NCBI GenBank assembly: GCA_016278615.1
Contig: JADQBM010000025.1
Span: 1-37,251, forward strand
From: Clostridia bacterium
GTDB lineage: Bacteria > Bacillota > Clostridia > Peptostreptococcales > JAAYPU01
Direction of reading: 5' to 3'
DNA length: 37,251 nt
Positions within the stretch are counted from its first letter, which is position 1. Every line of letters starts with the position of its first letter. The notes under the pieces are model-generated. The model was not told the DNA's origin. It searched no databases and saw only the letters and a program-made list of their open reading frames with translations. The position numbers were made by a program, and so were the translations under genes. Positions 47 to 18,258 of the stretch are shown one piece after another.

Positions 47-50
47 TTTG

Positions 51-90
51 AAAAAAAGACTTTAAATCGAAAGATTTAGAGTCTTTTTTT
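51..90 (+). terminator. Intrinsic terminator of the rRNA operon
   Basis: A near-perfect hairpin (arms 51-68 and 73-90, one G-U pair) closes on a GAAA tetraloop, with an A-run on the left arm and seven Ts on the right. It directly follows the 5S rRNA end. Confidence 0.9.
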
Positions 91-355: not shown

Positions 356-362
356 GCGTCTC

Positions 363-1655: not shown

Positions 1656-1887
1656 GACATGCACCTCGTATAATATTTTACCAAAATTCAAAGGGATATT
1701 AATAAAATAATATAACATTATCCCTAAAAATGCAATAGATATAGATGTTCACCTAATAATATTACCAAAACAAACAATGAGAGTAGTATAAATTCCTTTT
1801 CTATAAATGATAAACTTAAAATAATAAAGTATAGGGGATTAAATAAAATGAATTTTCAAAAAATAATTAAAATTTGAGGTATTAGAT

Positions 1888-3246
1888 ATGGGTAAAGACT
1901 TATTGATTAAAACATTAAAACACGAAAAAACCGATGGAGTCCCTTGGGTTCCTTTTGCAGGCGTGCATGCAGGAAAGCTAAAAGGTTATACAGCAGAAGA
2001 AGTTCTTAAAGATGCAGATAAGCTTTTTGAGTCTTTAATGGAAGTCAAAAAGATTTATGCACCAGATGGTATGCCCATTATGTTTGATCTGCAAGTTGAA
2101 GCTGAGATACTGGGTTGTGATCTCTTGTGGGCAAAGGATAATCCCCCATCTGTTAAATCACATCCTTGCTCTGGAGAAAAAAGCATTCCTTGTAACTGTA
2201 AAATCCCTACCGCTGATTCAGGTAGAATTCCTATGATTGTAGATGTCATGAAAAGAATGAAAGCTGCTGTTGGTGAGGAAGTTGCGTTATATGGATTAAT
2301 TTGTGGGCCCTTTACTTTAGCTTCTCACTTAAGGGGCAGTGAAATTTTCATGGATATGATTAAAGACCCCGCTTATGTAAAAGAGCTGGTAGAGTTTTGT
2401 GGAGAAGTAGCTTGCAAATTGTCTGAAATTTATATTGAAGCAGGCATGGATGTTATTGCTGTGGTAGATCCCCTTGTAAGTCAAATTTCACCAAAGCACT
2501 TCGAATCAATGCTATCTGATTCTTTTAAAGCTACATTTGATTTCATCAGAGAAAAAGGCGCGTTGTCTTCGTTCTTTGTGTGTGGCAATGCTACTAGACA
2601 AATCAAAGTAATGTGTGATACCAATCCAGATAGTATTTCTGTTGATGAAAATGTGAATCTTCACGATTCCAAATTGGTTACGGATCCATACAATATTACA
2701 ATTGGAGGCAATATTCCACTTACAACCACCATGCTTCATGGAAATCAGCAAGATAATATGAAATGTGTGATTGACCTCATGGACAGTTTGGATCATCATA
2801 ACTTGATTATCAGCCCAGGATGTGACATGCCATATGATACCCCTATTGAAAACACAGTGGCGGTTGCACAGGCTGTTAAAAGAACAGATGATGCAAGGAA
2901 AATGATTGAGAATTATGAATCTGTAGAAGAAGATATTGACATCAGCATTCCAGATTATAAAGATCGAGATAAGGTCTTAATTGAGCTGTTCCTATTAGAC
3001 CCTGAGCAATGTGCAGCATGCACATACATGTTAAATAGTGTTGTAGATATATATGATGAAATCAAAGAGATGGCAGATTATGTTGTCTATAAATACACCA
3101 TTAAGGAAGATATAGCAAGAACTAAGAAAATGGGCATAAGCAATCTACCGACAATGTGCGTTAATGGTGAGGTAAAGTGGGTCTCTATTATTCCGAGTAA
3201 AGAAGAATTCATAAATGAAATAAAGAAATATATTAAAAAGAAATGA
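1888..3246 (+). CDS. UroD-family methylcobamide methyltransferase-like protein with thioredoxin-like tail
   Basis: 452 residues. Residues 1-~345 match the uroporphyrinogen decarboxylase/MtbA-MtaA superfamily, which moves methyl groups from methyl-corrinoid proteins to a thiol. The zinc site of that family is H-x-C plus a distant C. Here the second ligand (Cys232 in FVCGN) and the third (Cys312 in SPGCDMP) are present, but the His position is Phe230. From about residue 360 a thioredoxin-like domain carries a CAAC motif (Cys375, Cys378) and a probable cis-Pro in LPTMC. Ribosome site GAGGT precedes ATG 1888. First gene of the operon, 66 bases before mtbC. Firmicutes generally lack coenzyme M, so an acceptor such as tetrahydrofolate, or a redox or repair role on the corrinoid protein, is possible. 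Called by family; the acceptor is unknown. Confidence 0.8.
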   Translation: MGKDLLIKTLKHEKTDGVPWVPFAGVHAGKLKGYTAEEVLKDADKLFESLMEVKKIYAPDGMPIMFDLQVEAEILGCDLLWAKDNPPSVKSHPCSGEKSIPCNCKIPTADSGRIPMIVDVMKRMKAAVGEEVALYGLICGPFTLASHLRGSEIFMDMIKDPAYVKELVEFCGEVACKLSEIYIEAGMDVIAVVDPLVSQISPKHFESMLSDSFKATFDFIREKGALSSFFVCGNATRQIKVMCDTNPDSISVDENVNLHDSKLVTDPYNITIGGNIPLTTTMLHGNQQDNMKCVIDLMDSLDHHNLIISPGCDMPYDTPIENTVAVAQAVKRTDDARKMIENYESVEEDIDISIPDYKDRDKVLIELFLLDPEQCAACTYMLNSVVDIYDEIKEMADYVVYKYTIKEDIARTKKMGISNLPTMCVNGEVKWVSIIPSKEEFINEIKKYIKKK

Positions 3247-3312
3247 GTTTTAGATATAATATAGATATAATAAAGTTAGAAACTCATTATAAATATTTTA
3301 AGGAGGTTAAAT

Positions 3313-3966
3313 ATGAATAAGGAACTTATTTTCCAAATGGCCCATGCATCCATTATAGATTGCGATGAAGACAAAGCAATGCAAGTTATTAAAGATGCAC
3401 AGGACAACAACATTGATTTAGTTGAACTTCTAAGTATGGGTTTTAGTTCTGGAATCAGAGAGTTGGGAGATCAGTTTGGTAGAGGTGAGATTTTTCTACC
3501 AGAGCTAATATTTTCAACAGAAGTAATGAAAAAAGCATCAGCAGTTATTGAAGAAAAACTTGGGAGCGACAATGTACAAAAAAAAGCTAAAATGGTTATC
3601 GGTACAGTTGCAGGTGATGTCCATGATATTGGAAAGGGAATCGTTTGCTCTCTCGTAAAAAGCAATGGGGTAGAAGTCTATGACTTGGGTAGAGAAGTTC
3701 CGGCATTAACGTTTATAGAAAAGGCAGAAGAGTATCAAGTAGATTTCATTGGAAGTAGTGCATTACTGACGACTACAATGACTGAGCAGAAAAAGATTGA
3801 GGATATATTGAGAAAAGAAGGTCTTAGGGACAAATATAAAACCATGGTAGGCGGAGCCCCTGTCACGAAGCGATGGGCAGAAAAAATTGGCGCAGATGCT
3901 TATTGTGAGGATGCTGCAGAATCCGTAAAAATGGTCATGCAATGGATCGAGCAGGGTGGAAAATAA
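3313..3966 (+). CDS. mtbC: Methylamine corrinoid protein MtbC
   Basis: 217 residues, the standard length for MtbC/MtmC/MttC corrinoid proteins. Residues 1-~85 form the helical cap (B12-binding-2). The Rossmann-like B12 domain follows, with the base-off/His-on signature GDVHDIGKG, where His104 is the predicted lower axial cobalt ligand, and the later GSSALLTTTM and VGGAPV loops that hold the nucleotide tail. It accepts the methyl group from MtbB and probably also MttB, as no other corrinoid protein is encoded here. AAGGAGGT lies just before ATG. It sits between the UroD-like gene and mtbB with short gaps, as in archaeal mtb operons. Which methylamine it prefers cannot be told from sequence, so the mtbC name rests on its neighbour. 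Confidence 0.9.
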   Translation: MNKELIFQMAHASIIDCDEDKAMQVIKDAQDNNIDLVELLSMGFSSGIRELGDQFGRGEIFLPELIFSTEVMKKASAVIEEKLGSDNVQKKAKMVIGTVAGDVHDIGKGIVCSLVKSNGVEVYDLGREVPALTFIEKAEEYQVDFIGSSALLTTTMTEQKKIEDILRKEGLRDKYKTMVGGAPVTKRWAEKIGADAYCEDAAESVKMVMQWIEQGGK

Positions 3967-3988
3967 TTAAAGAAAGGAAGGGCGATTA

Positions 3989-5389
3989 ATGAGCAACGAT
4001 AAGAAATTTTTTACCCGTATGGGTGATGGTTCAGTTGTGTATATGACCGAAGTAGAGATTCGTGAAGATATAGCCGCAGGTGTAGCTGATGCAGCTACCA
4101 GGGGTAAAATTCCACCACTCTCTACAGATGAGATTCAGCGGATATATGAAATTGTTACCATGCCAGGTATTGTGGTAGGTGTAGAGCCAGGACAAGAAAT
4201 TGTTTCAACCAGTGATTCGGGAGCAGACAAGGTAGGCGCAAAATGCGGTGTACCTGTTGATAGAACAACTCAGGCTGTTATTCATGAGAGAGTACTGGGT
4301 TGTGATTCAGTGGACATTGGATTTAGAGACTATAACTATAAAACTGCAAAAGGCGTTGTAGAGCACGAAGCACATGCAGTAAGAAGTGCATTAAATATTA
4401 CAACAATGCCGATTTTCTACGGCGCTATGACCAATCTGGGCTTTTATACCAAACCAGATGGTCCAGTAGAAAATTGGGCAGAGCTTCTACCTCAAGGCAG
4501 GATTGAAGAATCTTTTAAAGCTCAAGAAGAAGCTGTTGAGCATGCTGTTAGGGATGTTGTCTATGTTGCAGAGCAGATGAATACGGCTGGTGCCGATGCA
4601 ATGAACTTAGACACCTCAGGAGCAGGAGGAGATGCTGATTTTTTAGCTGCATTGAAAGCAACAGAAATCATCCGAGAAAGATTTCCGGACCTAGCAGTAG
4701 AAATAGGTATGGCCGGAGAATTTGTTTTGGGTATGCATGGCAAACTCAAATATGATGGTGTTCGGTTGGCGGGTCTGTACCCACATCAACAAGTTAAATT
4801 AGTTGAAAAAGCTGGCGCATCCATTTTCGGTGCTGTGGTAAATACGAACTGTAATATGTCATTTGCTTGGAACATAGCTCGAGTATGTACTTTTATGAAA
4901 GCATGTGTTGAAGTGGCTAGCATTCCGGTACATGCAAATGTAGGGATGGGTGTATGTGGCATTCCAATGTGTGAAATCATACCAACGGACTCGGTTTCAA
5001 GAGCTGACAAATGCATGATAGAAATATGCAAAATTGATGGTTACTAGCTGGGCGTAGGAGATCCCCTTGGAATAGAATCGACTCACGCAATTGCTGCAGG
5101 AATGGGCGGAATACGTACAGCCGGAGATCTGGTTATACGTATGCAGCTTACTCACAAGATGAAACTTGATGAGGCAAAAAAATATGTAGCAGAAAAGTTG
5201 GGCGTTTCAGTTATGGACCTTTGTGATGTTGTTAAAATGGCAGAGGTCAGAGAAGATTTAGGTATCGGTATTCAAGAGCCTTTCAACGGAGCTAACATAG
5301 GTATGGAAGCTAAGTTTAGGATTTCTGAAATACTAGGCCAAAAAATCAACTCCGTAGAACGTTTCAAGGAAAGAGCAGGCGTAAAATAA
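3989..5389 (+). CDS. mtbB: Dimethylamine methyltransferase MtbB, pyrrolysine-containing (UAG read through)
   Basis: Transfers a methyl group from dimethylamine to a corrinoid protein. The frame runs 352 codons to a TAG at 5045-5047, then continues without a stop for 113 codons to TAA, giving 466 residues, which matches archaeal MtbB (about 467, Pyl near 356). Both halves are homologous to MtbB: the upstream part has the MNLDTSGAGGDADF region and the part after UAG begins LGVGDPLGIESTHAIAAG. Pyl is predicted at residue 353, where its imine ring would bind the amine in the active site. A complete pyl gene set and an amber-reading tRNA lie about 4-8 kb downstream. Ribosome site GGAAGGG precedes ATG. 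Conventional annotation would split this into two ORFs (3989-5047 and 5102-5389) or call it a pseudogene; neither fits. Confidence 0.95.
5045..5047 (+). other. In-frame UAG decoded as pyrrolysine in mtbB
   Basis: TAG at codon 353 of mtbB, in the context GGT TAC TAG CTG GGC. Strong MtbB similarity continues directly after it in the same frame. I see no convincing stable stem-loop (PYLIS-like) right after it. Confidence 0.92.
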
Positions 5390-5436
5390 TAAATAGCTGA
5401 GTTAACAAGCAGCTATGATCAGTGAAATTAATAAAA

Positions 5437-5462
5437 GGATAGCAGATACATATCTGCTATCC
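5437..5462 (+). terminator. Strong hairpin after mtbB (attenuator or mRNA-stabilising element)
   Basis: A perfect 12-bp inverted repeat, GGATAGCAGATA, two bases, then its complement, sits between the mtbB stop and the G3E GTPase. The sequence after it (CTTAGATTT) is a weak U tract, so full termination is unlikely. It may reduce read-through from the abundant methyltransferase mRNA into the cofactor genes, or protect the 3' end of the upstream message. Confidence 0.5.
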
Positions 5463-5488
5463 CTTAGATTTAAGAAAAGGTGGACATT

Positions 5489-6406
5489 GTGATCGAATTA
5501 GTTCTTCTAACAGGTTTTCTGGGGGCAGGGAAAACAACCCTTTTAAAAGCAATATTGGATGCTTATAAAGACCAAAAAATTGGTGTGATTGTAAATGAAT
5601 TTGGGAAAGTCAATGTAGATGCTGTTTTATTAGAGAAAGATGGTATTACCATGGCAGAACTCAGTAACGGGTCTATTTTTTGTGCGTGTATCAAAGACAA
5701 TTTCCTTAAGAGTTTAATTGAGATGTCTCAAATGAATATAGATTATTTGTTTATTGAAGCGTCAGGATTGGCTGACCCTTCCAATATGCCCCAAATACTA
5801 AAGGCAATAGAGCCTAAAATATTAAAACCTTATGACTATAAAGGTGCTTTATGTGTGGTTGACGCTGAAAACTTTATGGATCTCTATGATATGTTGCCAG
5901 CTCTTGAGCATCAGTTGGAATATAGTGGTTCGGTCATTATTAACAAAGCAGATTTAGTAGAAAATGAAAAAATAGCGGAAATATCTCATAAAATCGGGGA
6001 GGTAAATCCAAGGGCTCAGGTATATATTACGTCTTATTGCAAAGTCAATATTATGGATATTATCAATGGCTTGGTTGCTTCGTCCAAAGAAGCAGAAGAA
6101 ACAACCAATACTTTTGAGTCAAGACCAAAAACTTTTGTTCTTTCAGCAGAAAGCAGTTTGCCCTTTGAAGATTTAAAAGCATTTATCACAGAGATTGCAG
6201 ACTCTGCCTATAGAATAAAAGGTTTTGTAAAAACCCATGAGGGGACCATAGAAGTGAGCGCAGTTGGAAAAAACATAGAGTTATCTCCTTGGACAAAACC
6301 TATAAAGAATTCCGAAATTGTTGTTATTTCATCTGTTGGAATTAAAATGCTTAGTTTAATAACTAAAGCCATAGAAAGTCACCTTAAAGGTAAAATTCAT
6401 CTATAG
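5489..6406 (+). CDS. G3E-family (CobW/COG0523-like) GTPase
   Basis: 305 residues from GTG 5489, which follows AAAGGTGG at good spacing; a GTG three codons upstream is in frame but lacks a site. Walker A GFLGAGKTT starts at residue 9; EASGLADP and the guanine motif NKAD (in VIINKADLV) follow, then a CobW-type C-terminal domain. This family inserts metals or B12-type cofactors into client enzymes. The canonical metal-binding CxCC after the NG turn is altered to SIFCAC, so any metal site is changed. Given its operon it may help load or reactivate a corrinoid or Pyl-dependent methyltransferase; that is inference. It ends in TAG, and the frame continues without interruption into the next gene, so amber suppression would yield a fusion with the activation-domain protein. 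Confidence 0.85.
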   Translation: MIELVLLTGFLGAGKTTLLKAILDAYKDQKIGVIVNEFGKVNVDAVLLEKDGITMAELSNGSIFCACIKDNFLKSLIEMSQMNIDYLFIEASGLADPSNMPQILKAIEPKILKPYDYKGALCVVDAENFMDLYDMLPALEHQLEYSGSVIINKADLVENEKIAEISHKIGEVNPRAQVYITSYCKVNIMDIINGLVASSKEAEETTNTFESRPKTFVLSAESSLPFEDLKAFITEIADSAYRIKGFVKTHEGTIEVSAVGKNIELSPWTKPIKNSEIVVISSVGIKMLSLITKAIESHLKGKIHL

Positions 6407-6418
6407 GAGAATACTGTT

Positions 6419-7093
6419 TTGAAAAACGAAATCATAACAATCCATAGAAATGAAGCAGATAAGATAGCTGAGGGTTATTTCATTAAAATGTGCGGCTTCG
6501 ACAGGGATGAGAATAAGTTTAAATCCATGTTGCAAGATGGCTATGGTATAAGAGAAAAATTATCGGATGATTTAAGTGTTAGAGCCATCATTTCTTCATT
6601 TGACAAAGAGATTATATGGGGAAAAACTGTTGATATCAATGGAGTTAAATTTGAGTGTAATGCTTTTGAGCAAATAGATAGAGAGAACATAAAAGAGTTA
6701 TTCGTATATATTTTAACGGCAGGCAACTTTGATTTACCCGGTGCATCCATGTTAGAGATGGTTTATGCAGATGCATGGGGCACAGCATATGTGGATGCTG
6801 GAAGAGATATTTTAAGGTCCAGATTGAGCACTCGAGAGCCCTTTGTATCAGATTCCTTTGGACCAGGGTATTATGGGATGGATGTTCCACAGGTAAAGAA
6901 CTTCTTTAGGGTCTTAGATTCTAAAAAGATAGATGTAAAACTATTAGATAGCGGCTTGATGGTCCCAGTAAAATCCATTGCAGGGTTATTTGTCTCTGTG
7001 AAAGACCCCTCTCAATTACCAGGAAACGATTGTAGTTCGTGTCTTGCCAATGAAAAAGGCTGTTATTTTTGCAGAATGAAAAACAAAAAATAA
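6419..7093 (+). CDS. MetH-activation-domain-like corrinoid protein partner 1, Cys-rich C terminus
   Basis: 224 residues, starting with TTG; AGGAG overlaps the upstream TAG, nine bases before the start, suggesting translational coupling. The protein resembles the vitamin B12-dependent methionine synthase activation domain: a helical N-terminal part, then FGPGYYGMDVPQ and LMVPVKSIAGLF. The C terminus carries CSSC...GCYFC, four Cys that could bind an Fe-S cluster or zinc. The MetH domain docks over cobalamin during reductive methylation, so this protein probably assists reactivation of MtbC with the adjacent RACo. A relative lies at 13342-14046. The ORF is certain; the exact function is not established. 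Confidence 0.78.
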   Translation: MKNEIITIHRNEADKIAEGYFIKMCGFDRDENKFKSMLQDGYGIREKLSDDLSVRAIISSFDKEIIWGKTVDINGVKFECNAFEQIDRENIKELFVYILTAGNFDLPGASMLEMVYADAWGTAYVDAGRDILRSRLSTREPFVSDSFGPGYYGMDVPQVKNFFRVLDSKKIDVKLLDSGLMVPVKSIAGLFVSVKDPSQLPGNDCSSCLANEKGCYFCRMKNKK

Positions 7094-7145
7094 TGAAGAA
7101 ATTTATACGGGAATCATATAAATGGATTCAGAAGAGGAAAATAAT

Positions 7146-8978
7146 ATGATTGTAACTTTTTTGCCTCAAAACATTAAGCAGCAAGTTCATAAGAAGGATT
7201 ATCTTTTAAACATTGCTTCCAAAGCTAATATTATGATTGATGGCAACTGTGGGGGCAAAAAAAATTGTGGAAAATGTAAAGTTCAAGTTGTATCTGGAGT
7301 AATAGCACCACTGAGTTCGGAGGAAATATCCATCTTAACAGAAAAAGAAATAAAAGAAGGATATCGTTTGGCTTGCCATTTGATGGTTGAAGATGATTTA
7401 GTGGTTCAAGTTCCACAGATTAACAACAATATTTCGCGAAAAACAAAATTAACGTGGATGCCTGAAAACCTTAGCCTAAAGGCATCTATTAAAAAATATT
7501 TTGTTAAAATAGATAAAGCATCATTGCAAAATCAGGTGAGCGATAGTGATCGTATTTTAAAGGTGCTCCCTGAAAAAGGGGTTGCCATTAGCCCCTTTTT
7601 GTTGGTGAATATGCCAAGGCTTTTAGAAGAAAGTGATCCGCAAATTACCGTTACAGTAAAAGACAACCTGATCATTGATTTGGAAATAGGCGATACCACC
7701 AGTCATTGTTATGGTATTGCATTTGATATAGGGACCACCACCGTAGTAGGCATGCTATGGGATCTAAATGAAGGTAAAATGATAGGCGCTTCTGCATTAA
7801 CCAATCCACAAAGTATTTTTGGAGCAGACGTGATTTCGAGAATACATTTCAGCAGTAGTGATCCTAATAACTTGCTTATTATGAAGACCAAGATAAAAGA
7901 GTGTTTTAACCACATCATAAAAGATTTCATAAGCCTGTACAATATTAATAATATGCATATATATGAAGCGACAGTTGTGGGAAATACGACCATGAGCCAT
8001 TTGTTCATGGGTGTTGACCCAACACAGCTTTCCAGATCGCCATTTGTGCCAGTTTTTTGTATGCCCATTGATTTGCCGGGCAAAGATATGGAGGTGAACA
8101 TAAATCCTTTAGGGAATGTTCATTTATTGCCTAATATAGCAGGGCATGTGGGGTCAGATATGGTAGGGGTATTATTGGCGTCTGATATTATGGAACTTGA
8201 AGGGATCAATTTAGCCATAGATGTTGGTACGAATGGTGAGATTGTTCTATCCCAAAAGGGACGTGTTTTTGCTTGTTCCACTGCAGCCGGGCCTGCTTTT
8301 GAAGGTGCTTCCATTTATCAAGGGATGAGAGCTGCTTCAGGAGCTATCGAGGGGGCGCATATCCACTACGGAGAACTGATTTTAAAAGTGATTGATGACA
8401 CTGAGCCCATAGGGATTTGCGGATCAGGTCTAATTGACATTACTGCAGAACTGCTAAATATAGGAATTATTGACCATACAGGTAAATTAATGGATGAAAA
8501 CTGGGCCATAGAAAATAATATAGACACTTCGCTTGCCAAAAGATTACGAAAAGGAAAAAATGGTAAGGAATTTGTATTATTCTGGCTAGAAGGTCAAGAG
8601 GACATTGTTATAACACAAAAAGATATTCGAGAGGTGCAGCTGGCTAAGGGTGCTATTTACGGAGGTATTGTCATTATGCTCAGTGAGTTGGGCCTTCAAG
8701 TGAAAGATTTGGATAAAATTATTTTGGCAGGTGCTTTTGGCAATTATATTAAGAAAGAAAGTGCTCTTGGAATTGGTTTGTTTCCAAAGATTTCCTTAGA
8801 TAAAATAATTTCCATGGGAAATGCCGCAGGGGTAGGTGCAAGTATGGCACTTTTGTCTCTTGAAGACAGAAAAAAAGCACATGAACAGGCTCGAAAGGTA
8901 GAACACATTGAACTTTCAGGACATTCAGATTTTCAAACAGAGTATATAAAGGCAATGAATTTCCCGAAAGAAGTATAA
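7146..8978 (+). CDS. RACo/RamA-type corrinoid protein reductive activator (2Fe-2S + ASKHA ATPase)
   Basis: 610 residues from ATG 7146, which has GAGGAA seven bases upstream; an in-frame ATG 24 bases earlier lacks a ribosome site. Residues ~1-90 form a plant-type 2Fe-2S ferredoxin domain with Cys35, Cys41, Cys44 and Cys77 (C-x5-C-x2-C...C). The large C-terminal part is an ASKHA-fold ATPase with AFDIGTTTVVG, AIDVGTNGE, GICGSGLID and LAGAFGNYI motifs. RACo-type proteins use ATP to push electrons to Co(II) corrinoid that has lost activity, restoring Co(I). The domain order matches bacterial RACo; archaeal RamA does the same job with different clusters. Here the target is most likely MtbC. The gene ends 16 bases before pylSc. 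Confidence 0.92.
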   Translation: MIVTFLPQNIKQQVHKKDYLLNIASKANIMIDGNCGGKKNCGKCKVQVVSGVIAPLSSEEISILTEKEIKEGYRLACHLMVEDDLVVQVPQINNNISRKTKLTWMPENLSLKASIKKYFVKIDKASLQNQVSDSDRILKVLPEKGVAISPFLLVNMPRLLEESDPQITVTVKDNLIIDLEIGDTTSHCYGIAFDIGTTTVVGMLWDLNEGKMIGASALTNPQSIFGADVISRIHFSSSDPNNLLIMKTKIKECFNHIIKDFISLYNINNMHIYEATVVGNTTMSHLFMGVDPTQLSRSPFVPVFCMPIDLPGKDMEVNINPLGNVHLLPNIAGHVGSDMVGVLLASDIMELEGINLAIDVGTNGEIVLSQKGRVFACSTAAGPAFEGASIYQGMRAASGAIEGAHIHYGELILKVIDDTEPIGICGSGLIDITAELLNIGIIDHTGKLMDENWAIENNIDTSLAKRLRKGKNGKEFVLFWLEGQEDIVITQKDIREVQLAKGAIYGGIVIMLSELGLQVKDLDKIILAGAFGNYIKKESALGIGLFPKISLDKIISMGNAAGVGASMALLSLEDRKKAHEQARKVEHIELSGHSDFQTEYIKAMNFPKEV

Positions 8979-8994
8979 ATGGAGGTTCAAGACC

Positions 8995-9837
8995 ATGACG
9001 GAAAAATTAACCGTATCTCAAAGACAACGTTTGGTTGAATTAGATGCTCAAGAAGATGTTTTAGCTAAGGAATTTGAGAATAGTGGACAAAGGGATCTAT
9101 TTTATAAAGCAATAGAGATAGAGTTGGCAAAAAAAAATAAAGAAAAAATATTAAGTTTATTAAACGAAGGGCATCAGCCGTTGTCTTGTGAAATTGAGAA
9201 TCGCCTCATTAATTGGCTCACAAAAGAAGAAGGGTATTCTCAGGTGGTTACGCCGATTATTATTTCAGAAGCGATGCTGGAAAAAATGACCATTACTTCT
9301 GAGCATCCTTTATCTAATCAGGTTTTTTGGCTAGATTCAAAAAAATGTCTTCGACCCATGCTGGCACCAAATCTTTATACATTGATGCGTGATCTTTATA
9401 AGATTGCAAAACAACCTGTAAAGATATTTGAAGCAGGTCCATGCTTTAGAAAAGAAACACAAGGGGCCCAGCATATGAATGAATTTACCATGTTGAATAT
9501 GGTTGAACTAGCAAGTGTTGAGGAAGGCAAACAAATGGAAAGATTAACACAATTAGCCCACTCATCTATGAAGGCAATAGGAATTGAACATTACGAAATT
9601 GAAATAACCCCATCAGAGGTCTATGGAGAAACTTTGGATATCGTTGTTGGCGATTTAGAACTGGCATCAGGGGCTTATGGGCCTCATGTTTTAGATGATA
9701 AATGGGGTATTTTTGATACATGGGTAGGAATTGGTTTTGGTATTGAAAGAATTGCTATGGCTATGGCGGAGTACAAAAATATCAAAAGAGTTGGTAGAAG
9801 CCTCTCCTATATAGATGGTGCCAGACTCAATGTATAG
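8995..9837 (+). CDS. pylSc: Pyrrolysyl-tRNA synthetase, catalytic domain (PylSc)
   Basis: 280 residues. A class II synthetase core equivalent to the C-terminal half of archaeal PylS: motif 2 FEAGPCFRKE...HMNEFTMLNM, the LRPMLAPNLY pocket helix and motif 3 GFGIERIAMAM. Bacteria split PylS in two; the tRNA-binding part, pylSn, lies at 13003. The enzyme joins pyrrolysine to tRNA-Pyl. ATG follows GGAGGT at eight bases. The gene ends in TAG; suppression would add seven coded residues plus two Pyl (a second in-frame TAG occurs six codons on) before TGA, so the enzyme's own C terminus could report amber suppression. Confidence 0.97.
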   Translation: MTEKLTVSQRQRLVELDAQEDVLAKEFENSGQRDLFYKAIEIELAKKNKEKILSLLNEGHQPLSCEIENRLINWLTKEEGYSQVVTPIIISEAMLEKMTITSEHPLSNQVFWLDSKKCLRPMLAPNLYTLMRDLYKIAKQPVKIFEAGPCFRKETQGAQHMNEFTMLNMVELASVEEGKQMERLTQLAHSSMKAIGIEHYEIEITPSEVYGETLDIVVGDLELASGAYGPHVLDDKWGIFDTWVGIGFGIERIAMAMAEYKNIKRVGRSLSYIDGARLNV

Positions 9838-9860
9838 ATTTTTCTTGAAAGGTAGAGTAC

Positions 9861-10667
9861 ATGACAAGACTTGTAGAGAATTGGATTAAAGATATCAGAA
9901 CATCCATCAAAGAGTATGAAAAAGAGTTAATGGCTAAAACAGGTATGAATCTTATGGCAATCGCTTCTGCTGCTAGTGGTGTTGACCAAGGAAAGATAAT
10001 GTTTGAATTAGAGAATAACAAAATAGGCATTGTTCCTATTACCACAGGATTAGGCATCATTGATTCATTTACTGAATCAGTCGCCTCTGTGTTGCTATGT
10101 ATGGGATTTGAAGCTTTTGTAACAAAGCAGACAGATGTTTCGGGCCTACTGGAGGCCCATGAAAAAGGTGCATCTATTCAATTTATGGCAGATGATGACC
10201 AGTTTATTGCCGTGCATCTTAAGAAGAATCTTATTGCAGAAAACAACTGGGCAACTGCCAGAGGATTTGTTGCTGCATTAGAAGGGGCTACAGGTAGCTT
10301 AAGAGGTAAAGAAGTTCTTGTCATAGGATGTGGCAATGTGGGCACTGAAGCATTGTCATTTCTGAAGGAGAAAGGTGCGAGTCCCATAGCATATGATAAG
10401 AACGAAGTTATTATGAAGCATTTAACCCAAAAAGGCTATGAAACACTATCCCATATAAATAGGATTGGAAATTATTCACTAATAGTGGATGCCAGCAACG
10501 AAGGTGGATGGATTAAAAAAGGTATGCTGGATTCCAAAGCATGGATTGTAACCCCAGGCGTGCCAATATCTTTAGATGAAGAAGCCTGTGCCTTTCATAA
10601 AAACAGATTGATACATGATTATTTACCTATTGGGGTAGCAACCATGATGGCGTCAGTTTGCAAATAG
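9861..10667 (+). CDS. pylD: Pyrrolysine synthase PylD (final dehydrogenase)
   Basis: 268 residues. PylD oxidises the terminal amino group of (3R)-3-methylornithinyl-Nε-lysine, allowing ring closure to pyrrolysine. The N-terminal helical domain holds LVENWIKDIRTSI and GLGIIDSFTESV; the Rossmann NAD-binding motif VIGCGNVGTEAL starts near residue 153; the C-terminal segment has TPGVPISLDEE, typical of PylD. It starts 23 bases after pylSc with AAAGG upstream and ends in TAG only 34 bases before tRNA-Pyl. If that TAG is suppressed, the frame runs into the tRNA sequence and meets another TAG at 10743. Confidence 0.96.
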   Translation: MTRLVENWIKDIRTSIKEYEKELMAKTGMNLMAIASAASGVDQGKIMFELENNKIGIVPITTGLGIIDSFTESVASVLLCMGFEAFVTKQTDVSGLLEAHEKGASIQFMADDDQFIAVHLKKNLIAENNWATARGFVAALEGATGSLRGKEVLVIGCGNVGTEALSFLKEKGASPIAYDKNEVIMKHLTQKGYETLSHINRIGNYSLIVDASNEGGWIKKGMLDSKAWIVTPGVPISLDEEACAFHKNRLIHDYLPIGVATMMASVCK

Positions 10668-10686
10668 GAAGTCAAGATGATAATAT
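10658..10686 (+). promoter_or_regulatory. Candidate internal promoter for tRNA-Pyl
   Basis: TTGCAA, a 17-base spacer and TAATAT overlap the end of pylD; transcription would begin about nine bases before the mature tRNA 5' end. Each hexamer matches consensus at four of six positions, so this is only suggestive; the tRNA could equally be cut from the operon transcript. Confidence 0.35.
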
Positions 10687-10701
10687 GTATAAATTGGACA
10701 T

Positions 10702-10773
10702 GGGGGGCAGATCGAATAGATCGCGTGGACTCTAAATCTATGTAGCCGAGTGTGACTCTCGGGCTCCCCGCCA
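10702..10773 (+). tRNA. pylT: tRNA-Pyl (anticodon CUA, amber-decoding)
   Basis: A 72-nt tRNA with encoded CCA. Acceptor arms are GGGGGGC (10702-10708) and GCTCCCC (10763-10769), with discriminator G10770. Hallmarks of tRNA-Pyl are all present: one base between acceptor and D stem, a short D arm (GATC, GAATA, GATC), a six-base-pair anticodon stem (10724-10729 with 10737-10742), loop CTCTAAA with anticodon CTA at 10732-10734, a three-base variable loop and a T loop TGTGACT lacking TTC. The acceptor stem and D arm closely resemble the Desulfitobacterium tRNA-Pyl as I recall it. It lies between pylD and pylB on the same strand. Confidence 0.97.
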
Positions 10774-10800
10774 AAAAACAAAGAAGGTGTAGGCAGACGC

Positions 10801-11847
10801 ATGTTATACGATAAAAAAGCAATTATTCGGAAGGCTTTATTGGAAAGTAAGCTGGAAAAAGATGAAATCATTGAATTGTTAGCTGTTAAAAATAAAGAGG
10901 ATTTGGAAAGCCTATTTTTGGCAGCAAGAGAAATTAGGAATCAACATTTTTCAAATAAAGTATTCCTGTATGGGTTTGTCTATTTTTCTACTTGGTGTAA
11001 AAATGAATGCAACTTTTGTTATTACAGACATTCAAATGATATTATGCGATACAGAAAATCCCCAGAAGAAATCTTGGAGATAGCGAAAAATCTTGCAGAC
11101 TCAGGGGTTCATTTAATAGACCTTACCATGGGAGAAGATATAAAGTACCACCAAGAGAATTATGAATCTATTTTGAAGGTAATAAAAGATATAAAAGAAA
11201 CCACACAGCTACCGGTTATGATATCTCCAGGAGTTGTTGAAAATAAAGTGATTGATCAACTGGCAAATATGGGAACAGAATGGTACGCTTTGTACCAAGA
11301 AACACATAACAGGGCATTATTCAGTCAGCTTAGAACAGGACAAGATTATGATGAACGTATGCACGCTAAGGAATACGCCAAAGAAAAAGGGATGAGAATA
11401 GAAGAGGGAATTTTAGTTGGTGTAGGAGAAAATCTTGAAGATATCGCAAATTCCATATTGGAGATGGGTAGGATAAATGCAAAGCAAGTTCGAGTGATGG
11501 GGTTTGTTCCACAAAAGGGCAGCCCCATGGAAAACAGAGAAACTTCTGATAGAGAACTTGAATTAAAGGTGATTGCTATTTTACGGTTGATGTATCCCAA
11601 CGCATTGATTCCAGCCTCTTTGGATGTAGATGGGATTTGGGGCTTAAAAGCAAGAATGAATGCAGGTGCCAATGTAATCACTTCAATTATTCCTCCTAAA
11701 CAAGGATTGATGGGAGTTGCCCAAAGCGTTAAGGATGTAGAGGAGGGATCTCGCACAGTTAAAGAAGTGCAGGCTATTCTGTCTCAGATGGGACTGATAC
11801 CCGCTACAGTTTCCGAATACATGGATTATTTGGGGAGGCATATATGA
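10801..11847 (+). CDS. pylB: 3-methylornithine synthase PylB (radical SAM)
   Basis: 348 residues. PylB rearranges L-lysine to (3R)-3-methyl-D-ornithine, the first step of Pyl synthesis. The radical SAM cluster motif is C66-x3-C70-x2-C73 (CKNECNFC), followed by YRHSNDIMRYRKSPEEI; the TIM barrel includes DLTMGEDIKYH, YQETHN and the C-terminal PASLDVDGIWGL and SIIPPKQG segments found in PylB/BioB relatives. AAGGTG lies 12 bases before ATG. The stop overlaps the pylC start (ATGA), so the two are translationally coupled. Confidence 0.96.
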   Translation: MLYDKKAIIRKALLESKLEKDEIIELLAVKNKEDLESLFLAAREIRNQHFSNKVFLYGFVYFSTWCKNECNFCYYRHSNDIMRYRKSPEEILEIAKNLADSGVHLIDLTMGEDIKYHQENYESILKVIKDIKETTQLPVMISPGVVENKVIDQLANMGTEWYALYQETHNRALFSQLRTGQDYDERMHAKEYAKEKGMRIEEGILVGVGENLEDIANSILEMGRINAKQVRVMGFVPQKGSPMENRETSDRELELKVIAILRLMYPNALIPASLDVDGIWGLKARMNAGANVITSIIPPKQGLMGVAQSVKDVEEGSRTVKEVQAILSQMGLIPATVSEYMDYLGRHI

Positions 11848-13016
11848 CTAAGGTTGCAATTATTGGTGGAAAACTACAGGGTTTAGAAGCAGTCTATTTA
11901 GCTTTAAAGGCAGGAATGGAAACTGTGGTTATTGACAAAAAAGAAAATGTGCCTGCAAGTCATTTATGCCATGAGTTTATACGGTGTGACATCTTTAAAA
12001 GAGAAGAAAAAATGATGGCTGCTCTTAAGGAGGCTGATTTCATTGTACCTGCTTTAGAGGACAAGGATGTTTTGGTAGCACTAGAAGAATTGGCTAACCA
12101 ATACCATTTGCTGTTGGCCTTCGATTTTAAATCCTATTGGATAACATCCTCAAAAATATTATCTGATGAATTGTTTCTGAAGCACCATATACCTGCACCT
12201 TTGCATTATCCCAATTGTAAATCCCCTTATATTGTTAAGCCTTCGTCTTCCAGTGGGAGTGAAGGGGTTAAATACATCGCTAATAAGGCAGAAATGGAAG
12301 CCTACTTGAGCCACATTTCAAGGGATGAAGAGTGGGTAGCCCAAGAGTTTCTTTCTGGGAGGTCCTTTTCAATCGAAGTTATCGGTAAGCCTAAAAATTA
12401 CAGAACTTATGATGTAACGGAGATTTTTGTAGATGAAGTCAACGATTGCAAGAGAGTGACAGTACCTTGTGATCTTTCCCAGAACTCTAAGAATCAATTT
12501 GAAGAGATAGCAATAAAAATTGCTGAAATTTTACAACTTGAAGGCATAATGGATGTAGAAGTAATAGAAGATCAAGGGGTTCTAAAAGTCCTTGAAATAG
12601 ATGCCAGAGTACCCAGTCAGACGCCCACAGTTGTGTACCATTGTTCAGGAATCAACCTGTTAGAAGAATTAAGAGACATTTTTTGCCATGGAAATTTCAG
12701 ACAAGTTGCAACACAAGGAAAAAAATTGGTAAGCTTTGAACACCTGTTAATTAGTGATGGCAAGATAAAAGTTCAAGGAGAACATATTATTTCAGAGGCA
12801 GGACCCTTAAAATTAATCCGGGATTTTTGTGGTGCAGAAGAAGCCTTGACAGACTATGAACCAGGAAAGACCTCTTGGAGAGGCACCTTCATTAATACTG
12901 CTGATACCAGTCAACATTTAGACGCTAAAAGGGATAATATGATAAAACAAATAAGAATCTTACAGGGGGAAGAGCTTGAGTATTGTGACTTAGGCCCAAT
13001 CTATGCATATGAGTGA
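11844..13016 (+). CDS. pylC: 3-methylornithine–lysine ligase PylC (ATP-grasp)
   Basis: 390 residues. PylC uses ATP to join 3-methylornithine to the ε-amino group of a second lysine. Residues 2-12 (TKVAIIGGKLQ) begin a Rossmann-like N-terminal domain; the ATP-grasp motif YIVKPSSSSGSEGV lies near residue 130, and the metal/phosphate-binding EIDARVPSQTPT follows near residue 250. The start overlaps the last bases of pylB and the end overlaps pylSn by 14 bases, a tightly packed unit. Confidence 0.96.
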   Translation: MTKVAIIGGKLQGLEAVYLALKAGMETVVIDKKENVPASHLCHEFIRCDIFKREEKMMAALKEADFIVPALEDKDVLVALEELANQYHLLLAFDFKSYWITSSKILSDELFLKHHIPAPLHYPNCKSPYIVKPSSSSGSEGVKYIANKAEMEAYLSHISRDEEWVAQEFLSGRSFSIEVIGKPKNYRTYDVTEIFVDEVNDCKRVTVPCDLSQNSKNQFEEIAIKIAEILQLEGIMDVEVIEDQGVLKVLEIDARVPSQTPTVVYHCSGINLLEELRDIFCHGNFRQVATQGKKLVSFEHLLISDGKIKVQGEHIISEAGPLKLIRDFCGAEEALTDYEPGKTSWRGTFINTADTSQHLDAKRDNMIKQIRILQGEELEYCDLGPIYAYE

Positions 13017-13341
13017 TTCAGCCAAAAGATATTATAGAAAGCATGTTGATTTTTTCCGATTAATAGAAAAAATTAAATTATGGCCTTCAAGAAAGGGCAC
13101 ACTTCACGGCATACGCAGTATAAATATTAAAGGAAATTATGCAGAGGTTATCACCCATTGCGGTGAAAGCTTTATGATCTACAATTCCAAAAGCTCTCGG
13201 GCAGCCAGATGGTTAAGAAATAAATGGGTAAGCAATGCTTGCCCCAAATGCAAAATACCTGCGTGGAAGCTTGAAAAGTATTCAACTACCTATTTTACAG
13301 AGCACTATGGTTCAGAATTAAAACACAAAGGAGATTCTTAA
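13003..13341 (+). CDS. pylSn: Pyrrolysyl-tRNA synthetase N-terminal tRNA-binding protein PylSn
   Basis: 112 residues. This is the separate bacterial form of the PylS N-terminal domain, which grips the T arm and variable loop of tRNA-Pyl and raises charging efficiency. Recognisable are KLWPSRKGTLHGIRSI, HCGESF, NSKSSRAARWLRNKW and a C-x2-C pair (CPKC) followed by WKLEKYS; the His and Cys residues probably hold zinc. The start overlaps pylC; a second in-frame ATG at 13009 is an equal candidate. No gap remains before the next gene, which starts directly after the TAA. Confidence 0.94.
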   Translation: MHMSDSAKRYYRKHVDFFRLIEKIKLWPSRKGTLHGIRSINIKGNYAEVITHCGESFMIYNSKSSRAARWLRNKWVSNACPKCKIPAWKLEKYSTTYFTEHYGSELKHKGDS

Positions 13342-14046
13342 ATGAGTACGATAGAGCGTACAATTGTAGAAATACCCATAAGTGGATTATCTGGGGTTGA
13401 GGGCAGATTTAGTCGTGAAACTAAGATAAATATGGATCAGATTCCTAAAAAATATTGTGATTTAACCATGAGAACAAAAGATCTGTGTTATGGAAAAACT
13501 CAGGCGATAGGCGTATATCAATCTATAAAGATTAAAGACTTATTAGAAGATCGAGTCCTATTAGAAAATGGGAGTATCCTTTATGGTAATTTTCCCCCTG
13601 TCCTTTTGAAGGATTCTGTGGAATTGGTTGCTTTGATTTCTACCCTAAAAAACAGTCAGGAATTATGTGAAGCTGAAGATAACATGATGGGTCGTTATTT
13701 TATAGATTCATGGTGTTCATCCATTATAGAAAGTGCCGATACATGGCTTCAAAATAAAATAAAGGATCATGTGAAAAAAGAAGGTCTGTATACCACATCG
13801 GCCTGGTTTCCCGGACAGCACAATTTTCCCTTGGAAAACCAGCAAGTTCTTTTTGACATCTTGAGACCTGAAGACTTAGATATAAAGCTTTCAGAAAGCT
13901 TTATGATGCATCCTGTTAAATCTGTTTCAGGTATATTGGGTTTGACCCATAGTCAAGACAACAGAAAACTAATACCTTGTAATTATTGTGATCTGAAGGA
14001 GAATTGTCCTTCCAGGGATAGATCTAAAGACTGTAATCAGTTTTAA
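13342..14046 (+). CDS. MetH-activation-domain-like corrinoid protein partner 2
   Basis: 234 residues. It resembles the B12-dependent methionine synthase activation domain and is a distant relative of the product of 6419-7093. Shared features are the central PGQHNFPLENQQVLFDIL helix turn, MMHPVKSVSGILGLT (compare MVPVKSIAGLF in the first) and a C-terminal Cys cluster (CNYCDLKENCP). GGAG precedes ATG by about eight bases, inside the end of pylSn. It lies 27 bases before mttB, as the first copy lies before the RACo gene. A role in reactivating corrinoid or in supporting MttB is likely but inferred. Confidence 0.75.
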   Translation: MSTIERTIVEIPISGLSGVEGRFSRETKINMDQIPKKYCDLTMRTKDLCYGKTQAIGVYQSIKIKDLLEDRVLLENGSILYGNFPPVLLKDSVELVALISTLKNSQELCEAEDNMMGRYFIDSWCSSIIESADTWLQNKIKDHVKKEGLYTTSAWFPGQHNFPLENQQVLFDILRPEDLDIKLSESFMMHPVKSVSGILGLTHSQDNRKLIPCNYCDLKENCPSRDRSKDCNQF

Positions 14047-14073
14047 GAAAAAAAGTGAGAAAGCGGTGATTTT

Positions 14074-15528
14074 ATGTATCAAGAAGATGTTCTTGGCTAC
14101 AGTGTCTTACGAGAACATGATTTGCAAAAAATTCATGAGGCAACCTTAGATATTTTGGAAGACTATGGCATACAGGTGGATGCTAAGGATGCTCGGGAAA
14201 TTTTTAAAGCTGCCGGATGTACGGTAGACCCAGAGACCAATAGGGTGAAATTCCCTCGTCAACTGGTGAATGATGCCATAGAGTCGACTCCCGGTGAAAT
14301 TCTTTTAGCTGGTAGAGACCCTAAAAATGATGTCATACTTTCCGGCAAGAAAGTAATCTTTAAAAATTTCGCCACGGGTATTCAGGTCATTGACCCAGAA
14401 ACTCAGGTTTTAAGGGATTCCACAAAAGAAGACTTGGGAAACATAGCCCGCTTTTGCGAAGCTTTAGATGAAGTTGGATATTTTACATTAGCTGTTTCAG
14501 CCAATGACATTGATCCCAATGTAAGAGATCTTTATGAAGCAGAAGTCGTATTAAACAACACCACTAAGCATTTTAGTCATGACACCCACAGTCCAAAGAG
14601 TGCTCGTCAGTTCATAGATATGGCAGCTGCCATAGTAGGTGGAAAAGATAAGCTACGGGAACGCCCTATTGTCTCCTTAGGAACCTGTCCCGTAAGTCCA
14701 TTGACATTAATTGCGGATTGTACGGACCAGATTAGGGCAGCAGCAGAAGTAGGTATTCCTATAAATATTCTTTCAATGGGACTTGCGGGAGGCACAACGC
14801 CTGTTACTTTAGCAGGTACTTTGGTGGTCACAAATGCTGAGATATTAGCAGGTGTTACTTTTTCCCAGTTGATAAACAAAGGGAATCCTGTTATATATGG
14901 GACTTCTAATACTATTATGGATATGCGGTTCACCACCTCACCGGTTGGTGCTCCTGAACAAGCTTTGTTCTCTGCAGCAGTAGGTCAAATAGGGCATTAT
15001 TACGAAATACCCACGCAAGTAGGAGGGACATAGGCAGACAGCAAAATAGCAGATTTTCAAGCAGGACACGAAAAAACAATGACAGCCATCGTTCCAGCCT
15101 TAGCGGGGGGCAATATATTATATGGCATGGGTTTACTGGAAATGGGACTTAGCTTTAGCTATGCACAATTATTGGTAGACTGTGAAATTGCCCGTATGGT
15201 TCGTAGGCTCATGGATGGGATTACTGTAAATGAGGAAACTTTAGCCGTTGATTTAATTAAGTCGGTAGGTGCCGGTGGCCATTATCTCGCGGAAAAGCAT
15301 ACCATGAAACATTTAAGAAATGAACATGTACAGGTTAAATACATTGATCGTAAAAATCGTGTTGCTGATGAAGAAGTAACCACTAGTGTCATGATGGAAA
15401 GAGCTAAAGTAGATGCACTTAAAGTATTGAAAGAAACCAAAGCCAAACCATTAGATATTGAGACACAAAAAATAATCAGAGGCATAATAGAAGAGGCAGA
15501 AAAAGAGTTTAAAACAAATACAAAATAA
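14074..15528 (+). CDS. mttB: Trimethylamine methyltransferase MttB, pyrrolysine-containing (UAG read through)
   Basis: Transfers a methyl group from trimethylamine to a corrinoid protein. The frame has 319 codons, a TAG at 15031-15033 (residue 320), then 164 more codons to TAA: 484 residues, close to archaeal MttB (about 495, Pyl near 334). The start has LREHDLQKIHEATLDILEDYG; the region before UAG is YEIPTQVGGT and after it ADSKIADFQAGHEKTM, as in Pyl-type MttB. The non-Pyl relatives (MtgB-type) have a sense codon here. Last gene of the operon, with a terminator 20 bases after it. It must share MtbC, as no mttC is present in the window. Confidence 0.95.
15031..15033 (+). other. In-frame UAG decoded as pyrrolysine in mttB
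   Basis: TAG at codon 320 of mttB in the context GGG ACA TAG GCA GAC. MttB similarity continues in frame for 164 codons. No stable hairpin is obvious immediately downstream. Confidence 0.92.
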
Positions 15529-15547
15529 ATGAACTTTGACTAAATAT

Positions 15548-15592
15548 AGCTACAGCAGAAAGCTTTATACCTTGAATGCTGTAGCTGTTTTT
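15548..15592 (+). terminator. Intrinsic terminator of the methylamine/Pyl operon
   Basis: Ten-base arms AGCTACAGCA (15548-15557) and TGCTGTAGCT (15577-15586) followed by GTTTTT. It lies 20 bases past the mttB stop and before the chemoreceptor gene, which therefore has its own promoter. Confidence 0.88.
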
Positions 15593-15753
15593 AGCTTTAT
15601 AATTGTTCAATATATACATATATTGAACAAGCATGGGGCTATGTTGAAAAAAATGAAATATTTTGGTATTATATGTATATCTTAAAATACCATTTCGAAA
15701 TTCATAAAGATTTGCGTTCTCAGATTTTATAATAATTGAGAAAGGATTGAACA

Positions 15754-17841
15754 ATGAAAGAGAAAGAAAAGTTTGTTTCTATTGGGTTTAAGACATCTCT
15801 ACTGGTATTTTTTTTAATATTTGTTTGTGCAACGCTTACAAGTGTCATCATTTTTTCCACTACTCAAGATACAATAATCCTATCAAACCTCTTTCCTAAT
15901 ATTCTAATACCCATTTTCGCGTTATGCGCAGTACTGTTTTTAGCTTCGCTATTTTTCATAAGAAGGATGATTGTTACTCCCTTAAAAACACTACTGGAGG
16001 TATCCAGAGATTTGGCAGAAGGAAATACCGAAGTTGTTGCAGTTAATAATTCTCATGATGAAATAGGGCAACTCATGAATCACTTAAGTAAAATAACTGT
16101 AAGCATTCATAATTGGTCTCAATACGCTCAAAAAATTGCTGAAGGGGATTTATCTAAGGATATGATTCCAAGTTCAGAAAACCATAGGTTAGTGAATAAT
16201 ATGCGGATGATTATTAACAATCTCAGCAATTTAAGTTCACAGGTGAGCAAGATAGAGAAGCAAGTTGTTGAGGGGTATCTTTGTGAATCACGAAATGGAG
16301 ATCATTATAGCGGCGTTTATAGTGGGATCATTGAATCTGTTCAACACATGACGTGCTCCTTTGCAAGCATTTTAGACACCTTTGATTTTAGCATTATCAT
16401 TATTGATAAAGAGCATAAAATTCAATTCGCCAATACAAAAGCAATAAGTGGTTTGGCAAATAGAAATGAGACCATTTACAAAAAATGTTATGATATTTTC
16501 GGTTGCGAGTTAGATACATGTAAATTGGGAGACTGCGTAAAAAGCCAAAAGACCCAATCATTTGAAGAAGTCGGCACAGTATCTAAATTGGTTCTAAGTT
16601 CAAATATAATCCCTCATAAAGATGAATCGGGTAATATATTAGGGGTTATAGAAGTCTCCACAGATGTAACTGAACTAAAGAAAGTCGAAAAAGTTGTCAT
16701 AAAGCAATTAGATTATCAAAAAAATGAGATACAGAATTTAATTAAAAATTTAGACCATCTGGCGAATGGAAATTTGAGTATGGACTTTTCCATTTCAGAA
16801 TCGGATGAGGATACAAAAGAAATTGCAGAAAATTTTAAGATGCTCAACTGTTCCCTTGTTGAAAGTACTGAGTCAATAAAGCAAATCATTGAAGAAGTTG
16901 CAGACATGCTTTCTAAAATGGCAAATAAGGATCTCACAGTGGGTATAGGTAGAGAATATAAGGGAGACTTTATTAAGCTAAAGGATTCCATTAACTATAT
17001 TGTAGAGCATTTCAATACCATCTTATCAGATATTAATTTAGCAGCAGAGCAAGTAGAATCAGGAGCAGATCAAGTTGCAAGTTCTAGTCAGAGTCTATCT
17101 CAAGGCGCATCCCAACAAGCAAGCTCTCTTGAAGAAATAGGTGCTACAGTAACACAGGTAGCAGATCAAACTAAAGAAAATGCCCTTAACGCAGCCAAAG
17201 CTAATGAACTCTCTATAAAAGCAAAAGGCGATGCCCAACAAGGAAACATACAAATGCAGGAAATGCTAAAAGCTATGAACCATATCAAAGAATCCTCAAA
17301 AAGTATATCTAACATCATAAAGGTTATTGATGAAATAGCATTTCAAACCAATATACTTGCACTCAATGCTGCGGTAGAAGCAGCAAGGGCAGGTGAACAT
17401 GGAAGAGGATTTGCCGTCGTCGCAGAAGAAGTTAGAAACTTAGCGGCACGGAGTGCAAAAGCAGCTAAAGAAACAACAGACTTAATTGATTACTCCATCA
17501 ATAACGTGGAAGAAGGCTATGAGATTGCCAATGACACAGCGGATGCCTTAGATAAGATTGTAAAAGGTGTTGCGGATACTGTGGAAATTGTAAAGGGCAT
17601 AGCAGAAGCGTCCAACCAACAAGAAAAGGCTATCTCTGAAATTGATTCAAGTATAGAACAGGTTTCAGCAGTAACTCAAGCAAATACAGCGACAGCAGAA
17701 GAAAGTGCATCTTCCAGTGAAGAAATGGCGGGGCAAGCTCAAATGCTCAAGAATATGATACAAGAGTTTAAACTTAAGCATGAGCACAATAAGATGATTG
17801 AAACATCGCAAAGAGCAAGAATGATAGAGCATAGGAAATAA
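15754..17841 (+). CDS. Methyl-accepting chemotaxis protein with HAMP and PAS domains
   Basis: 695 residues. Two membrane helices (about 13-35 and 47-69) leave only a ~12-residue outer loop, so sensing is not by a large external domain. A HAMP domain follows (about 69-122), then a PAS domain (about 203-310; [20 protein letters not shown]) containing four Cys ([17 protein letters not shown]), a second HAMP-like segment and the signalling coiled coil with the conserved tip [26 protein letters not shown] precedes ATG. Adjacent to but transcribed separately from the methylamine operon; it may steer cells by redox or energy state during methylamine use, which is conjecture. No other chemotaxis genes are nearby. 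Confidence 0.93.
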
Positions 17842-17965: not shown

Positions 17966-17971
17966 AAACAC

Positions 17972-18173: not shown

Positions 18174-18204
18174 ATATAATAGAAAATCGATATTTCCTAT
18201 TATA

Positions 18205-18237: not shown

Positions 18238-18258
18238 TGATAGATATGTATTCAATTA

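Follow-up and report, generated by a model that had tools for sequence, protein, structure and literature searches.

Bacterial gene sets that join pyrrolysine (Pyl) with the use of trimethylamine (TMA) have already been described, as four papers attest (PMC3941956, PMC6778437, PMC9768040, PMC7593587). The operon presented here is a further case of these bacterial Pyl/methylamine systems. It lies at positions 1888-15528 of a 37,251-nucleotide stretch of DNA from Clostridia bacterium, called the window below, which makes up the whole of contig C89 in a 3.5-Mb genome (G000) that is 99% complete. The reading we favour, with a probability of about 0.76, is that the operon, probably inducible, already stood at an rRNA-ferredoxin-amaP locus before the lineage of G000 parted from that of a sister genus (genome G008), and that G008 then lost all of it except two genes, act1 and RACo. 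If so, the window carries a complete Pyl/TMA operon with a readable history, and the pair in G008 probably marks a genetic code that was once expanded and has since contracted.

Thirteen protein genes and one tRNA gene form a single array on the forward strand, in the order mtA, corrinoid protein gene (mtC), mtbB, cobW, act1, RACo, pylSc, pylD, pylT, pylB, pylC, pylSn, act2 and mttB (Table 1). Successive gaps are 66, 22, 90, 12, 28, 16, 23, 34 (to pylT), 27, -4, -14, 0 and 27 nucleotides; none exceeds 90, and three joints overlap or abut. Seven products (PylB, PylC, PylD, PylSc, PylSn, MtbB and MttB) score above the curated NCBIfam cut-offs, so the array is far beyond anything chance would produce. 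The first-pass annotation had listed all the pyl genes, two methyltransferases with UAG codons, a corrinoid protein, a RACo-type activator and helper genes on one strand, and family matches and coordinates bear this out. It had also called the unit self-contained. In function and gene set this would hold: pyl genes, tRNA-Pyl, methyltransferases, corrinoid protein and activator all stand in one array.

Family membership suggests how the parts work together. PylB, PylC and PylD would build pyrrolysine from lysine, and PylSc and PylSn would charge pylT. MttB and MtbB would shift methyl groups from TMA and dimethylamine onto the single corrinoid protein. From its place and fold, mtA may take the methyl group off the corrinoid. 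RACo, perhaps with act1 or act2, would re-reduce corrinoid that has become inactive as Co(II).

The features of a bacterial Pyl system are present: PylB, PylC and PylD above curated cut-offs, a PylS split into PylSc and PylSn, and a tRNA-Pyl with a CUA anticodon. ARAGORN missed pylT in the window; a scan for motif and acceptor stem recovered it, and it folds into a tRNA whose D arm is short. The same approach to 40 sources, the window and 39 related loci, gave a tRNA-Pyl with a CUA anticodon in 31 (the window and 30 of the 39). Each of the two methyltransferase genes has a single in-frame UAG, at 5045-5047 in mtbB, residue 353 of its product, and at 15031-15033 in mttB, residue 320. The mttB codon aligns to residue 334 of an MttB structure (PDB 7XCM), which a passage of PMC9842639 names Pyl334; mttB is also the sole match to PF06253 in G000. 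In mtbB a full-length family match places the UAG at the Pyl position, and PYLIS_2 begins at that codon, although we count PYLIS matches as family support only and not as evidence for a recoding element. Family and position thus lead us to predict that both codons are read as Pyl. The monomethylamine enzyme MtmB was not among the window proteins scanned; no genome-wide search for it was made.

The history of the operon is best approached through G008, which belongs to the same family as G000, differs in genus, and has a GroEL 93% identical to that of G000 and no PylD above the cut-off. Its locus reads 5S-act1-RACo-ferredoxin-amaP-SLH and is colinear with the window over amaP-SLH-OGG-abc-groES/EL-guaA. 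Window positions 6403-8966 match it at 70% of nucleotides; the RACo proteins are 70% and the act1 proteins 65% identical. The genes to the left of act1, and everything from pylSc through the chemoreceptor gene, have no match at the G008 locus. A 24-nucleotide exact match (window 17947-17970) begins 8 nucleotides past the G008 RACo stop. Both act1 and RACo are open in G008 (C35:44901-47861, L181), so the retained pair probably serves another corrinoid enzyme; reactivation of MetH would be one reason to keep it.

Where do these two RACo proteins belong? We built a tree of 36 rows, comprising the 30 best loci of the 84 genomes with a match and six others (the short row L083 was dropped). The window and G008 group at 100/99 and are joined by G174, a genome of family f10, at 99/97. 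They sit in a clade of 21 rows (100/99) that holds 17 RACos from pyl loci of families f1 (that of G000 and G008) and f10, the G008 protein, and those of three further f10 genomes. In G174 the genes run mtA-mtC-mtbB-(permease)-cobW-act1-RACo-Sc-D-T-B-C-Sn. Because the G008 RACo falls in the f1/f10 pyl clade, and because G174 has this gene order, the G008 locus is best read as the remainder of an f1/f10-type pyl operon, one that would have lost both flanks and retained act1-RACo. Term searches of the open-licence literature found no report of a pyl remnant, which is not proof of absence. The three further f10 genomes (G159, G268 and G275; L197, L203 and L205) are themselves of interest: their act1-RACo pairs belong to the f1/f10 pyl-operon clade and their genomes have no PylD above the cut-off, so the pairs are possibly remnants or cases of reuse.

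The concatenated pyl proteins of 38 of 40 sources were kept (L007 and L068, with fewer than three pyl genes found, were left out), and 21 of these entered a tree in which f1 and f10 form one clade (95/93). A clade of f10 alone is not rejected there (p 0.426). In the GroEL tree f1 stands beside f10, within which G174 branches off first (supports 88-92). A grouping of f1 with G174 is not rejected for GroEL (p 0.141), so descent also fits. Both descent from an f1/f10 ancestor with many losses and one old transfer near the base are consistent with these data; a recent transfer is not.

Several observations weigh against the history we favour. In the pyl tree the window groups with G174 at 94/97, a node that is not starred. 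The 15 rows outside the 21-row clade include RACos found close to pyl genes in three further families (G366, G393 and G487), so a "pyl-type RACo" is a valid notion for f1 and f10 only. A clade of f10 alone is mildly rejected for RACo (p 0.032), which makes a transfer from f10 to f1 before the G000/G008 split possible. Between the 5S gene and act1 of G008 remnants of the left-hand genes are unrecognisable, the best local score equalling the best of 50 shuffles. The third genome of the family, G020, lacks a PylD above the cut-off and gave no match to RACo at E 1e-100; the site was not found in it either. Finally, a hairpin at 5437-5462 lies inside the block; it may serve in transcript processing or attenuation, and co-transcription of the whole array is accordingly a prediction only.

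PylD is patchily distributed. Counting G000 itself, 14 of the 297 order genomes have it above the cut-off (G000 and 13 members of f10), as do 1 of the 3 genomes in the family and 24 of the 398 in the phylum. These counts are lower bounds, as one genome of family f11 indicates. Here (G105, L176; 76% complete) mtA and corrinoid genes are neighboured by two mtbB-like genes in which UAG occupies the Pyl position, yet no PylD exceeds the cut-off; the genome is probably a further Pyl encoder. The compact gene order, which the first-pass annotation had singled out, recurs elsewhere: in a set of 39 retrieved pyl loci, which includes short ones, Sc-D-T-B-C-Sn is found in G174 and in G363 of family f78; G279 has it interrupted by act1, and the rest are permuted or incomplete. 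In a metagenome-assembled genome (G567) two contigs, C76 and C75, carry two similar pylC-Sn-Sc-D-T arrays (L085 and L086), with a second pylT on C75. 

The first-pass annotation called the block a transferable amber-recoding unit next to an rRNA operon, a reading that in its strong form would mean a recent move to this site. The patchy occurrence of PylD would suit such a move, as would the cassette of G363, which adjoins those of f1 and f10 in the pyl trees (rooted at the midpoint), whereas its GroEL, on a long branch, groups with other families. A close donor is missing, however: of the 21 tree rows, the one nearest in its concatenated pyl proteins, G174, reaches no more than 60% identity. 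With PylB as the query, 105 records of the plasmid database PLSDB matched, all below 60% identity and at most 30.5% among the 20 matches listed; those with annotation are HydE, HydG, BioB, ThiH and the like. Viral contigs held no PylB relative, in a scan that reaches close relatives only and used PylB alone. Thus neither near-identical copies elsewhere nor a plasmid or phage carrier turned up in the samples and collections searched. The first-pass annotation had reasoned that identical order at the same rRNA site in all relatives would argue against recent transfer. One of the two family relatives, G008, does have the same site, as a probable remnant, although the pattern does not extend to all relatives. 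No rRNA matched in the stretches of the seven f10 pyl loci searched, and a site beside rRNA is thus not the rule. We regard the recent arrival of a self-contained mobile unit beside the rRNA operon as quite improbable. Older transfers of pyl genes between families are possible, and G363 is the one clear candidate.

A different history would make act1-RACo the original resident of the rRNA locus, with the methyltransferase and pyl genes inserted later on either side in the window lineage. At the locus G008 holds this pair but lacks every neighbouring operon gene; in G159, G268 and G275, too, the stretches read contain act1-RACo pairs of this clade but no pyl genes; and the dispersed repeats at both outer edges of the block could have aided recombination. 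Yet the RACo clade to which the pair belongs is that of f1/f10 pyl operons, and the neighbours of act1-RACo in G174 follow the same order, so that two insertions would have to rebuild a known order. We hold this sequence of events to be rather unlikely, and prefer an operon that was present before the split and lost from G008 except for act1-RACo. A third proposal concerns the coding content rather than the history: the stop of cobW is UAG and act1 continues in frame, so that Pyl insertion could join them into a third Pyl protein of 537 amino acids. In four of eight other pyl loci cobW also stops at UAG. The codon belongs, however, to the TAGGAG ribosome-binding site of act1, and the open frame past the stop runs for 1-35 codons in the eight loci and for 1-21 in the four with UAG, so read-through is not conserved. 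We rejected the fusion, which we think has almost no chance of being real; we take the UAG of cobW for a normal stop.

Methanogens are often said to have purged UAG as a stop codon. G000 differs. UAG terminates cobW, pylSc and pylD themselves, and it ends 37 of 180 open reading frames in G000 (about 21%) against 32 of 135 in G008 (Fisher p 0.58); these counts come from mechanically called frames of at least 200 amino acids in 20 stretches per genome. In this sample UAG stops are not depleted in the host. Since UAG is still a common stop, its decoding in G000 is probably conditional and limited in time. A precedent is Acetohalobium arabaticum, which according to a passage of PMC3941956 reads UAG as Pyl when grown on TMA but not when grown on pyruvate. 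In the window the likely switch is a divergent protein with a PocR sensory domain and an AraC-type helix-turn-helix (HTH), whose relatives (28-41% identity) lie beside mtA in five further loci of 18 (G203, G265, G056, G095 and G169). If it turns the operon on, an amber suppressor would be tolerable even though UAG ends about one gene in five. UAG is about as common in the encoder as in the loser, and so gain or loss of a code need not leave its mark on codon use.

The first gene of the operon, mtA, fuses a URO-D methyltransferase to a thioredoxin-like domain. We take a His and two Cys to be the zinc ligands of MtaA and MtbA. Both zinc-site Cys are present in the window protein and the His is replaced, so it departs from that zinc site: Phe stands where MtaA (PDB 4AY7) has the His of HxC in 21 of 22 mtA loci, the remaining locus not being covered there. 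This Phe lies two residues before the CG(N/D) cysteine, a PGC motif is seen in 20 of the 22 loci, and a CxxC follows downstream in the thioredoxin domain. The subfamily (window 1888-3246; L120-L141), with FxC for HxC and a conserved CxxC, occurs with and without PylD. At E 1e-60, 21 of 297 order genomes have a relative, 20 near full length and one a fragment, and 12 of the 21 have no PylD above the cut-off. Among 18 loci scanned, its own included, cobW lies beside mtA in 9 and the PocR regulator in 6. From this company, and from genomes without PylD above the cut-off, it follows that mtA-cobW is part of a broader module, one that also accommodates the pyl genes. Term searches of the open-licence literature found no description of a URO-D-thioredoxin methylamine protein, which does not prove that none exists.

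What accepts the methyl group? A search of G000 with the pterin-binding family PF00809 matched MetH alone (791 amino acids, no activation domain; C79:22405-23070, L265) and showed neither folP nor AcsE; MtrH/MtgA (PF02007) were not searched. Among the PDB relatives of this family are AcsE and a chain entered as DHPS, presumably from D. hafniense. It is conceivable, though doubtful, that mtA, without the zinc-ligand His of MtaA, hands methylamine methyl groups to a thiol, either its own CxxC or a thioredoxin partner, and not straight to tetrahydrofolate. If true, this would be a new coupling of corrinoid demethylation to redox metabolism, common to Pyl and non-Pyl methyltransferase systems. The acceptor step can be tested directly. 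A two-sequence AlphaFold model of mtA (mean pLDDT, the predicted local confidence, 57.6) was not used, and act1 gave no meaningful match in the PDB.

The first-pass annotation placed the operon next to an rRNA operon, and a 5S gene, complete at the equivalent place in G008 (Rfam), does lie upstream, but the window holds just its last ~47 nucleotides. Rfam accordingly reports no rRNA in the window. Positions 1-61 align at 90% to 93-152 of the G008 reverse complement, and a 5S covariance search of the G000 assembly found none. Contig C24 opens with the same 55 nucleotides as the window, and a multi-copy rRNA operon is therefore the probable point at which the contig broke. After mttB, a strong hairpin with a U-rich tail probably ends the transcript, which would leave the chemoreceptor gene at 15754 to a transcript of its own; a simple terminator scan with a loop limit of 8 does not list this hairpin. 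Sigma-70-like sites (65, against a shuffle mean of 59.8) show no excess and we claim no promoter. The repeats at the left and right outer edges of the block belong to two different dispersed intergenic families. Farther right, window 33619-34746 encodes a protein that scores far below the cut-off of the lasso-peptide C-terminal Trp epimerase model and is colinear in G008.

Table 1. Features of the window discussed in the text, in order of position
Feature	Position	Strand	Support and remarks
3' end of 5S rRNA gene, cut by contig start, then terminator hairpin	1..47 (end +/- a base or two)	+	alignment to G008; hairpin z -5.5
Dispersed repeats, left edge	90..355		70 matches of window 1-362 in genome (self included), mostly bases ~320-362
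PocR sensory domain and AraC-type HTH regulator, divergent from operon	363..1718	-	PF10114, PF12833
mtA, URO-D (MtaA/MtbA-like) methyltransferase fused to thioredoxin-like domain	1888..3246	+	PF01208; Thioredoxin_3 slightly below cut-off
mtC, methyltransferase corrinoid protein, MtbC-like	3313..3966	+	MtbC 213.9 bits (cut-off 350); TIGR02370 211.5 (cut-off 215.3)
mtbB, predicted dimethylamine:corrinoid methyltransferase with Pyl	3989..5389	+	TIGR02368 500.8 bits, cut-off 369; PYLIS_2
11-bp hairpin, mtbB-cobW gap	5437..5462	+	z -4.4
cobW, CobW-type G3E GTPase, stop UAG	5480..6406	+	PF02492, PF07683
act1, weakly like methionine synthase activation domain, Cys-rich tail	6419..7093	+	PF02965 E 0.0015, below cut-off
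RACo-type corrinoid reductive activase, [2Fe-2S] and ASKHA domain	7122..8978	+	RACo_C_ter 1.6e-80, Fer2
pylSc, stop UAG	8995..9837	+	TIGR02367 305.9 bits, cut-off 178
pylD, stop UAG	9861..10667	+	TIGR03911 229.5 bits, cut-off 150
pylT, tRNA-Pyl, CUA anticodon, encoded CCA	10702..10773	+	motif and acceptor-stem scan, fold
pylB	10801..11847	+	TIGR03910 495 bits, cut-off 348
pylC	11844..13016	+	TIGR03909 393 bits, cut-off 248
pylSn	13003..13341	+	TIGR03912 136 bits, cut-off 51
act2, second protein weakly like MetH activation domain	13342..14046	+	PF02965 3.7e-5, just below cut-off
mttB, predicted trimethylamine:corrinoid methyltransferase with Pyl	14074..15528	+	TIGR02369 631 bits, cut-off 525; PYLIS_3
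Probable operon terminator hairpin	15540..15600	+	fold z -5.1, U-rich tail
Methyl-accepting chemotaxis protein, HAMP/PAS	15754..17841	+	missing along with pyl block here in G008
Dispersed repeat ~210 bp, right edge	17990..18205		74 genome matches (self included), best other copies 95-96%; missing here in G008
2x[4Fe-4S] ferredoxin, first gene of conserved right flank	18259..18429	-	window 18206-18505 84% identical to G008

How does the operon compare with what is known? Its mtA resembles the methylcobamide:thiol methyltransferases MtaA, MtbA and CmuA (4AY7) in its URO-D family, CG(N/D) motif and later PGC cysteine. It differs from them in the Phe for the His of HxC, in the fused thioredoxin-like domain and in scores far below the curated cut-offs (147.4 against 400 bits for MtaA, 123.7 against 600 for MtbA). 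The window RACo has the complete architecture of RACo/AcsV and RamA, an N-terminal [2Fe-2S] domain with the RACo linker, middle and C-terminal domains. It nevertheless stays below both curated cut-offs, at 462 against 800 bits for AcsV, its best NCBIfam model, and at 121 against 500 for RamA, and so does not qualify as a RamA. Among whole loci, that of G174 (contig C72) shares the order mtA-mtC-mtbB and cobW-act1-RACo-Sc-D-T-B-C-Sn with the window; unlike the window, it has a gene of an amino-acid permease family between mtbB and cobW, and no match to mttB or act2 in the 34.5 kb of contig read. The window operon is also like the systems of Desulfitobacterium, Desulfotomaculum, Thermincola, Acetohalobium arabaticum, 'DCMF' and gut bacteria, as passages of PMC3941956, PMC6778437 and PMC7593587 describe them, in its split pylSn/pylSc, its pylB, pylC and pylD, its pylT and its UAG-containing methylamine methyltransferases. 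What would set it apart from the named Pyl bacteria is that catabolic, activation and pyl genes share one array, where act1 and RACo stand between them.

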